NCBI RefSeq assembly: GCF_000023945.1
Contig: NC_013158.1
Location: forward strand, 434,001 to 498,000
DNA length: 64,000 bases
Origin: Halorhabdus utahensis DSM 12940
GTDB taxonomy: Archaea > Halobacteriota > Halobacteria > Halobacteriales > Haloarculaceae
Reading direction: 5' to 3'
Under the pieces are notes generated by a model that saw only the letters and a program-made list of their open reading frames with translations, searched no databases and was not told the DNA's origin. Of the stretch, positions 5,777 to 8,772 are shown piece by piece. Each line of letters begins with the position of its first letter. Within the stretch, counting starts at the first letter, position 1. Made by a program: the position numbers and the translations under genes.

Positions 5777-8059
5777 ATGCCAGAGAAACGTACCGGAGTC
5801 CTCCCGTCGTTCGTGCGCGAGCGGTACACCGCACGGCTCGGGGTGGCCCTCGCGTTCGCGGTCGTCATCATGATCGCGTTCGGTGGCGTCATCAGCGCCC
5901 AGACGTCGGGTGAACTCCGCACCGATGTCGAGGACGACCTGACGACACAGTCGAATGCACAGGCCGACCAGCTCGAAACGTGGCTGTCAGCCGTCGAAGG
6001 TGACGTCCGGACGACCACGAAGCTACCCATATTCGGATCGGGAACCGTCGATCAAATCGATCGGGAACTCGAGGCCATGATCGCGAACGGCGACGTTCCT
6101 GCAAACGTGGTCGCCGTCCACTATCTCGACACGGCCGAGATGGAGTTTCTGGTGAGTTCGAGCGACACCATGGAGGGTGTCGATCCGGCTGAACAAGGTG
6201 CGGCGTTTGCGACGGATCCGCCGACGTTCACCAGCCCGGACGAGGTCTACATCTCCCAGCCGTTCTCGGTGCCGATCGTCGATCACCCGATCGTGGCAGC
6301 CATCTCGCCGATCGAGGGCGCGGAGGACCGCGCGCTCGTCTACATGATTGATCTCGAATCCCGGGCGGCAGCCCTCTCGACGAGCGGAGCCACGTCGACC
6401 ATCGTGGTCGACGAGAACGGGCAGTACGTGGCCCATCCAAACACGAGCAAGATCCTCGAACCATACGACGGCCCGGCGATCGAGACGGCCAACGCGACCA
6501 ACGGCTCGTTCCTCCGTCAGGGAGACACTGTCATGGGGATGACGACGATGGGGACTCGCGGCTGGACAGTACTGACCCAGCAGCCCGCCGAGGCAGCCTA
6601 TGCCCTCTCGGCGCAGATCAATTCCGATCTACTGGGCCTGGTGTTGCTCGCGATCATCAACCTGGGACTGATCGGCGTCACTATCGGTTCGAACACGGCC
6701 CTCTCCTTGCGCCGGCTTGCCAACCGCGCGAGTGAGATGGGCGGGGGCGACCTCGACGTCGACCTGACGACCCAGCGTTCAGACGAGATCGGGACGCTCT
6801 ATCGGTCCTTCGCGGAGATGCGCGATTCCCTCAGACGGAAGATCGACGAGGCCGAAACGGCACAGGACGAGGCCGAAACAGCCAGGCAGGAAGCCGAGGC
6901 CGAGCGAGCGGAAATGGAGGCCCTCTCGTCGCATCTCGAAGCGAAGGCGGAGGCCTACAGTGACGTGCTCGACCGCGTCGCCGACGGCGATCTGACCCAG
7001 CGTGTCGATCCGGATAGCGACAACGACGCGATGCGAACGGTCGGTGAAGAACTCAATATCGCGCTCGAAGCCCTCGAAACGACCGTCGCGGACGTCGAAG
7101 CTTTTGCCGAGGACGTCTCCCGATCGAGTGATAGCGTTCGTCGGAACGCCGACCGCGTCGGCGAAGCCAGCCGACAGGTCAGCCAGTCGATCGACGAGAT
7201 CTTCGACGGCGCAAGCGAACAGAGCGAACGGCTCCAGGACATCGCCGCAGAGATGGAAACGCTCTCGGCGTCCGCCGAGGAGGTCGCCAGTTCCGCCCAG
7301 GAAGTGGCCCAGACGTCCCAGCAGGCCGCCGAAGTCGGGGAAACCGGTCGGCGGGCCGCCGAGGATGCGATCGAGGAGATGCACGCCATCGAAGAAGAGA
7401 CCGAACGGACGCGCCAGGCGATCAACGACCTCGATTCGGACCTAGACGAGATCGGCGAGATCGTCGATGTCATCACCGAGATCGTCGAGCAGACGAACAT
7501 GCTTGCGATCAACGCCTCGATCGAAGCCGCCCATTCCAACGGCGGCGAAGGCTTCGCCGTGGTCGCCGACGAGGTCAAGAACCTCGCCGAGGAGACCAAG
7601 GACGCGGCCGGTGACATCGAGGCACGGATCGAGCAGATCCAGGACCAAGCCGGTGAGACTGTCGAGACGATGGAAGCGACGAGCGAGCGGATGGCCGCCG
7701 GTGTCGAGACGGTGACCGAGACAGTCGATTCCCTGGAGACGATCGTCGAGCGGGCTGAGACAGCCGATCAGGGCATCCAGGAGATCGACGCTGCGACGGA
7801 AGACCAGGCCGAAACGGCCCAGCAGGTCATGGCGATGGTCGACGACCTGACGGCGATCAGCCAGCAGACGGTCACGGAGGCAGACACCGTCGCCACGGCG
7901 GCCGACGAACAGACGGATTCCATCGCGGAAGTGACGACGTCGGCCGGCGACCTCCTGGATCGGGCGGACGAACTCCAGTCGCTGCTCGATCGGTTCACCG
8001 TCGAACAGACAGCGACAGACGGTGGCACTGGGAGAATTTCAGGAGGTGATGCCGCATGA
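5777..8059 (+). CDS. htr2: Sensory rhodopsin II transducer, HtrII-type
   Basis: 760-residue methyl-accepting transducer. TM1 is about 20-42; an extracellular Cache-like domain spans about 45-275 with YIDLES-like turns and GWTVLTQQP before TM2; TM2 is about 283-305; a HAMP domain is at about 305-358; a second HAMP-like segment ([10 protein letters not shown]) at about 395-430; and the signalling hairpin with tip [20 protein letters not shown] runs from about 568. Length and architecture match the 765-residue Halobacterium HtrII, which also senses serine outside the cell, rather than the short Natronomonas form. The stop overlaps the rhodopsin start by four bases (ATGA), so receptor and transducer are co-translated. 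Output would go to CheA/CheW, not encoded here. Confidence 0.9.
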
Positions 8060-8772
8060 TCGAAGTCGGCATCACGCTCTGGTTCACGCTCGGCACGCTC
8101 GGCATGGCGCTCGGGAGCGTCGGCCTCGCCTACGGGTTCGTCACCCTGTCGAGTGACCGACATCGCGAATACGCCGACGTCGTCGTCGTGACGCTGATCG
8201 CGACGGTCGCCTACGGGCTGATGGCCCTCGGAATCGGCGAGGTTTCGACGGCGAGCGGGGCGGAACTCTTCGTCCCGCGGTACGTCGACTGGCTGTTGAC
8301 GACGCCGTTGCACGTGGTCTTCATCGCACTCATCGCCGGGGCCGGGCGACGACTGATCGCGAAAGCCGCGGCGCTGCAGGCGGCGACGATCGTGCTCGGA
8401 TTCCTCGGTGCAGTGTTCGCGACGCCGCTGAAGGAACTGTTCTTCATCGCGGGTAGCCTGGCGTTCGTCGGCGTCGTCTACCTGCTCGTGGTCGAGGCCG
8501 CCGAGACCGCAACGCACCGCGACGACGTGACCGCGGGGCTCTACCGAAAGCTCCGGAACTTCGTGATCGTGCTCTGGCTGGTCTACCCGGTCATCTGGCT
8601 GCTCGCGCCGACTGGCTACGGGTTCATGGACAACGAAACCGCGTCGCTGGTCATCACGTACATCGACGTGGTGGCGAAAGTTGGCTTCGGCCTGATCGCG
8701 CTCAACGGCCTCCAGACGCTCGAATCGTTCGACGTCTCCGACGCCACCGGGTACGGGGCCGGCGAGGACTGA
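8056..8772 (+). CDS. sop2: Sensory rhodopsin II-like photoreceptor
   Basis: 238-residue, seven-helix retinal protein. By alignment of motifs with NpSRII (constant offset of three), Arg75, Asp78 (Schiff-base counterion, in [11 protein letters not shown]), Phe89 at the pump proton-donor position, Trp174, Tyr177, Trp181, Tyr202, Asp204 and retinal Lys208 are visible. Phe instead of Asp at the donor site marks a sensor rather than a proton pump, and the overlapping transducer gene confirms the role in (probably blue-green) photophobic taxis. Odd points: the residue before the retinal Lys is Ala207, where SRII normally has the signalling Thr, and the Thr189 equivalent is Asp192. Confidence 0.92.

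Follow-up and report, generated by a model that had tools for sequence, protein, structure and literature searches.

The opsin gene P0001 lies in the analysed window, a 64,000-nucleotide stretch of the Halorhabdus utahensis DSM 12940 genome, and its product is one of a large natural group of sensory rhodopsin II (SRII) proteins that lack Thr204, not an intermediate between pump and sensor. P0001 is probably a transducer-coupled SRII-type phototaxis receptor that passes its signal on without the Thr204–Tyr174 hydrogen bond; that it signals at all we infer from gene order and conservation. The relay of Natronomonas pharaonis SRII (NpSRII), running from retinal C14 through Thr204 and Tyr174 to the transducer, is the standard model, and Thr204 has been termed essential. 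Intact, transducer-coupled SRIIs without the hydroxyl, together with relatives that carry Ser or Thr, offer a natural test of how general this relay is. Positions are given in NpSRII numbering, and named residues of P0001 and its transducer P0002 in their own.

The receptor, its transducer and their interface

The two genes and the residues discussed below are as follows (all on the + strand).
5777..8059, +: cognate HtrII-type transducer gene (P0002), 760 aa; its stop overlaps the opsin start as ATGA
5900..5902, +: P0002 Gln42, equivalent to NpHtrII Glu43; expected partner of opsin Asp192
5909..6604, +: P0002 large extracellular region; weak dCache_1 match (E 9e-4, below the Pfam cut-off)
6623..6625, +: P0002 Ser283, equivalent to NpHtrII Ser62
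6659..6661, +: P0002 Asn295, equivalent to NpHtrII Asn74; expected partner of opsin Tyr202
6686..6688, +: P0002 Gly304, equivalent to the NpHtrII Gly83 hinge
6701..6835, +: P0002 HAMP domain (Pfam)
7307..7858, +: P0002 MCP signalling domain (Pfam)
8056..8772, +: SRII-type opsin gene (P0001), 238 aa; ATG start; Pfam Bac_rhodopsin E 1.8e-48
8287..8289, +: Asp78, counterion, equivalent to NpSRII Asp75
8311..8313, +: His86, at NpSRII Ile83, bacteriorhodopsin (BR) Leu93 and proteorhodopsin 105; polar retinal-pocket residue of the clade
8320..8322, +: Phe89, equivalent to NpSRII Phe86, at the BR Asp96 pump proton-donor position; no carboxylate
8584..8586, +: Tyr177, equivalent to NpSRII Tyr174; kept
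8629..8631, +: Asp192, at NpSRII Thr189; also in Haloarcula SRII
8659..8661, +: Tyr202, equivalent to NpSRII Tyr199, a transducer contact; kept
8674..8676, +: Ala207 (GCG), at NpSRII Thr204 and BR Ala215, from the alignment
8677..8679, +: Lys208, the retinal Schiff-base lysine, equivalent to NpSRII K205, from the alignment

The closest solved structures to P0001 are all NpSRII (phmmer, E down to 1.3e-43, about 40% identity), and the phmmer alignment with NpSRII runs without gaps through helices F and G. The best superpositions of the AlphaFold2 model (mean pLDDT 91) were with SRII and SRII/HtrII structures (Z about 31–33, rmsd 1.1–1.4), among them the complexes 1h2s_A (Z 32.8, rmsd 1.3) and 5jjn_A (Z 32.9, rmsd 1.2); bacteriorhodopsin 1qhj (Z 30.8) scored below the complexes. 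Model superposition and sequence alignment agree on the residue offset at the C-terminal end. The placement of Ala207 at Thr204 in the original prediction was thereby borne out by alignment, superposition and the codon GCG itself, which leaves helix G with no other candidate for the true Thr204. Likewise, the gap-free alignment confirmed Asp192 at Thr189, Tyr202 at Tyr199 and Tyr177 at Tyr174.

The pocket of P0001 is of the SRII type, with Arg75 as well as Lys208 and Asp78, Gly130 in place and no SRI PY motif. In a tree of opsins other than halorhodopsins, P0001 grouped with the SRIIs and not with sensory rhodopsin I (SRI) or BR. These features bear on the possibility that P0001 is an SRI-like receptor, attractant or bidirectional, in which the C14 steric trigger was lost along with Thr204. 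Such a reading draws on the Ala at position 204 in all 14 SRIs examined and on a C14–H band that is tied to negative phototaxis and absent in SrSRI (PMC3274258). Against it stand the SRII-type sequence, tree position and pocket, a similarity to SRI (32% identity, 68 bits) far below the SRII-side value of 42% and 152 bits, and the Asn74 equivalent retained in P0002 where SRI transducers have Gly. We consider it improbable.

A second alternative, this one raised in the original prediction, makes P0001 a middle-rhodopsin-like intermediate of pump and sensor; with its BR-like Ala it would mainly pump protons or have a mixed function. Ala207 does match BR Ala215, and NpSRII freed of its transducer has been reported to move protons (PMC3274258). 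However, P0001 has its own transducer in the operon with the interface residues kept, its tree position falls within the transducer-linked SRIIs, and only Asp78 represents the BR-type Asp85 and Asp96 pair, Phe89 occupying the Asp96 site. Moreover, a BR-type opsin with equivalents of both D85 and D96 is encoded elsewhere in the genome, a single contig of 3,116,795 bases, at C1:302833. The pump-like proposal is thus not supported, and we regard it as very improbable. The genome's third 'rhodopsin' hit, L003, scored below the Pfam cut-off, contained an internal stop and was dropped.

The same genome contains CheA, archaellins and two Brp/Blh-type genes, so that a chemotaxis kinase, motility and retinal supply are all encoded. 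The Brp/Blh-type (BCD) genes lie at G000:C1:1408934-1409803 and 308347-309219, one of them near the BR-type opsin.

P0002 has two TM helices and HAMP and MCPsignal Pfam domains; its TM2 is NpHtrII-like, the TM2–HAMP part matching NpHtrII with E about 1e-18. Transducers at related loci were found by profile search, and all transducer-linked opsins, before any classing, carried Tyr at position 199 (or Phe, in SRIs), while Val or Ile was the usual residue in opsins that had no transducer gene beside them. Both halves of the Tyr199–Asn74 pair are present, as Tyr202 of P0001 and Asn295 of P0002, from which we infer a bond between them. Halobacterium HtrII also senses a chemical, and the weak dCache_1 match means that the extracellular region of P0002 may likewise serve chemical sensing.

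Thr189 of NpSRII bonds Glu43 and Ser62 of the transducer (PMC3274258), and P0001 had been predicted to lack two of three key signalling contacts on account of Ala207 and Asp192. Both residue changes are real, but Asp192 does not amount to a lost contact. Residue 189 is highly variable among 163 SRIIs (D 60, T 58, Q 19, L 12), and Asp occurs there in 26 of 26 rows from Haloarcula (genus g3). Since the SRII of H. marismortui, which is reported to trigger negative phototaxis (PMC6450946), is of the kind that has the same Asp, the Asp192 part of the earlier argument fails. The transducer side changes as well: Gln is found at transducer position 43 in 34 of 34 readable pairs with an Asp189 receptor, and R, D or E in 41 of 44 with a Thr189 receptor, although the Asp189 rows, and with them the Asp189/Gln43 association, come mostly from one clade. 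An Asp192–Gln42/Ser283 contact therefore likely replaces the Thr–Glu43/Ser62 contact of NpSRII.

All seven Halorhabdus SRIIs are intact, with the same residues at the sites studied; the nearest named relatives of P0001 are from Halorhabdus species, with 80% and 75% identity. Because Ala207 and Asp192 are common to 7/7, they are no sequencing error. Within the genus, dN/dS for P0001 is 0.11–0.26, indicating purifying selection. A decaying receptor that has lost signalling, as the absence of a residue essential in NpSRII might suggest, is at odds with this selection, with the seven intact genes and with the intact transducer, and is exceedingly unlikely.

Residue 204 across SRII-type receptors

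To place Ala207 in context, 222 distinct opsins were gathered by class-wide and family-wide searches. Receptors were classed as SRII by an adjacent upstream transducer, Asp75 and Tyr199, without the SRI helix-G motif, which left 163 distinct transducer-linked SRIIs. Residue 204 was Ser in 68, Thr in 56 and Ala in 39 of them, in a set that is not random, the queries having been the window protein, NpSRII and an SRI, and that is skewed to Haloarculaceae. P0001 itself falls outside a definition of SRII by Thr or Ser at 204; with Ala in 39 of 163, neither residue was treated as defining the class. Since roughly one in four of the related receptors studied carries Ala204, the textbook relay is probably not the sole one. 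L261 has Ala204 as well; it is probably SRM, the third sensory rhodopsin in Haloarcula marismortui, and SRM takes part in phototaxis as a sensor (PMC6450946).

In the opsin tree, which was built leaving out columns 204 and 189, Ala204 is scattered over several SRII lineages with about seven changes between Ala and other residues; one Ala204 row, L238, is an outlier on a long branch close to the SRIs. A single base separates the codons of Ala, Ser and Thr, so changes at this site are easy. P0001 groups with the other Halorhabdus rows and genus g7 in a supported set in which every row has Ala (99/92), and the next larger set, 13 rows with Halosimplex and two Ser among them (96/89), lies inside the SRII part. 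Ala is thus general in the clade of P0001, which goes halfway towards the finding that the original prediction said would count against it, Ala being general in a well-studied SRII clade; this clade is not well studied. Among the papers searched, none was a study of a Halorhabdus sensory rhodopsin. In the sequences compared, Ala204 is fixed in Halorhabdus, and SRIIs switch among Thr, Ser and Ala at this position.

No compensating residue common to all Ala204 lineages was found, and independent-pair tests over SRII columns, with at most six usable contrasts, gave no significance among the columns listed. Several transducer TM2 columns, 73, 84, 88 and 96 among them, differ between Ala and Thr receptors in Haloarculaceae; they follow clades and are not separable from ancestry.

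Two kinds of unusual opsin appeared in the same collection. In L102:1444-2175, L135:555-1439 and L142:3507-4220, Gln replaces the Asp75 counterion in transducer-linked opsins with Ala204, the transducers being short (443–525 aa) and directly upstream of the opsin. In L238:1438-2241, a divergent opsin that is likewise linked to a transducer, Ala204 is combined with Glu at the position of Asp96.

Position 83 and probable signalling without Thr204

With no hydroxyl at position 204, the Thr204–Tyr174 hydrogen bond cannot form in P0001. NpSRII mutants at Thr204 and Tyr174 are disrupted in negative phototaxis, yet SRIs, which lack Thr204, still signal (PMC3274258). P0001 would bind P0002 as NpSRII binds its transducer, and the signal would travel from movement of helices F and G to TM2 and on to HAMP without this bond. 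Tyr177 would presumably be bonded to Asp204 of P0001, on the model of the BR equivalents of these two residues, which are bonded. That P0001 signals by a different contact was the likelier of the two readings first offered, and the operon, the kept interface and purifying selection support it, the Asp192 argument being the part that fell away.

Position 204 may quite possibly act mainly as a colour and photocycle-speed site that requires no substitute. On this narrower version of our main reading, which we take as a serious contender while stopping just short of favouring it, the Thr204–Tyr174 bond matters only in NpSRII-like receptors and there is no compensating residue. The repeated swapping of Ala, Ser and Thr fits it, as does the 8 nm red shift of NpSRII T204A (PMC6197263). 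Thr204 is further credited, in structural work, with stiffening helix G and lengthening the photocycle (PMC11992208). The missing hydroxyl in P0001 should accordingly bring a red shift of about 8 nm and a faster photocycle. However, the NpSRII mutants and the signalling gained by BR A215T make Thr204 functionally central (PMC3274258), and many other SRIIs retain a hydroxyl at 204 as Ser.

The other option is that the isomerised retinal, which Thr204 pushes sterically in the standard relay, receives this push from elsewhere in the pocket, here most plausibly from His86, which we place near the retinal by homology. The equivalent BR Leu93 position is the L/Q colour switch of proteorhodopsins (PMC7979833; PMC6197263), and BR Leu93 and Ala215 are both colour-tuning sites within 5 Å of the retinal (PMC6197263). 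Outside the SRII class, position 83 was Leu or Ile in 59 of 59 opsins. Among Haloarculaceae SRIIs, His83 always occurs with Ala (32) or Ser (6) at 204 and never with Thr (38/38), and 29 of 30 receptors with Asn83 have Thr204; only L118 departs from this, with Asn83 and Ala204. That both sites are within 5 Å of the retinal makes the swap suggestive; as the pairing is a single independent contrast on the tree, one phylogenetic event only, we treat it as a hypothesis and claim no coevolution. Gln at 105 and Thr at 108 also set P0001 apart from most other SRIIs. Outside Haloarculaceae, Ala204 lineages carry Leu83, so His83 is no general substitute, a point that also favours a purely tuning role for position 204.

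It is conceivable, but on balance unlikely, that Haloarculaceae SRIIs have shifted the retinal trigger out of helix G, from Thr204 to His86 in helix C, giving activation independent of Thr204. If so, there would be a second route from isomerisation to the transducer, possibly of other sign or, the His being ionisable, gated by pH. Whatever its part in the trigger, the polar His86 should shift the colour of P0001 back to blue, like Gln in proteorhodopsin (PMC6197263). A His at the colour-switch position provides a defined second site for testing.

Comparison with known systems

P0001 and P0002 resemble the SRII–HtrII system of N. pharaonis in fold (Z 33, rmsd 1.2), in sequence (about 40% identity) and in the transducer operon. 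P0001 keeps Tyr174, Tyr199, Asp75 and Phe86, and P0002 keeps the equivalents of Ser62, Asn74 and Gly83. However, P0001 has Ala for Thr204, Asp for Thr189 and His for Ile83, and P0002 differs from NpHtrII in its Gln for Glu43 and its large extracellular region.

Haloarcula SRII (L112, which we take to be the H. marismortui protein HmSRII) shares 48% identity with P0001 as well as Asp189, Gln105 and Thr108, and its transducer is of similar length (776 aa); in contrast to the Ala and His of P0001, it has Thr204 and Asn83. The Halobacterium-type SRII (genus g18) is similar in transducer length and in a residue other than Thr at 204, whereas its Ser204, Gln189 and Leu or Ile at 83 are unlike P0001. 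SRI likewise combines Ala204 with a transducer-coupled sensor, yet it is only 32% identical to P0001 and has Phe or Tyr199, Ser130, Leu83 and a transducer Gly74.

The opposite pattern appears in two opsins that lack a neighbouring transducer, L148:624-1370 and L149:672-1445: Thr204 and Thr189 are kept, the Asp96 site is occupied by Asp, and position 199 is Val or Met. They are possibly middle-rhodopsin-like proteins. To our knowledge, the middle rhodopsin of Haloquadratum walsbyi has no cognate transducer gene, and P0001 differs from it in having one.
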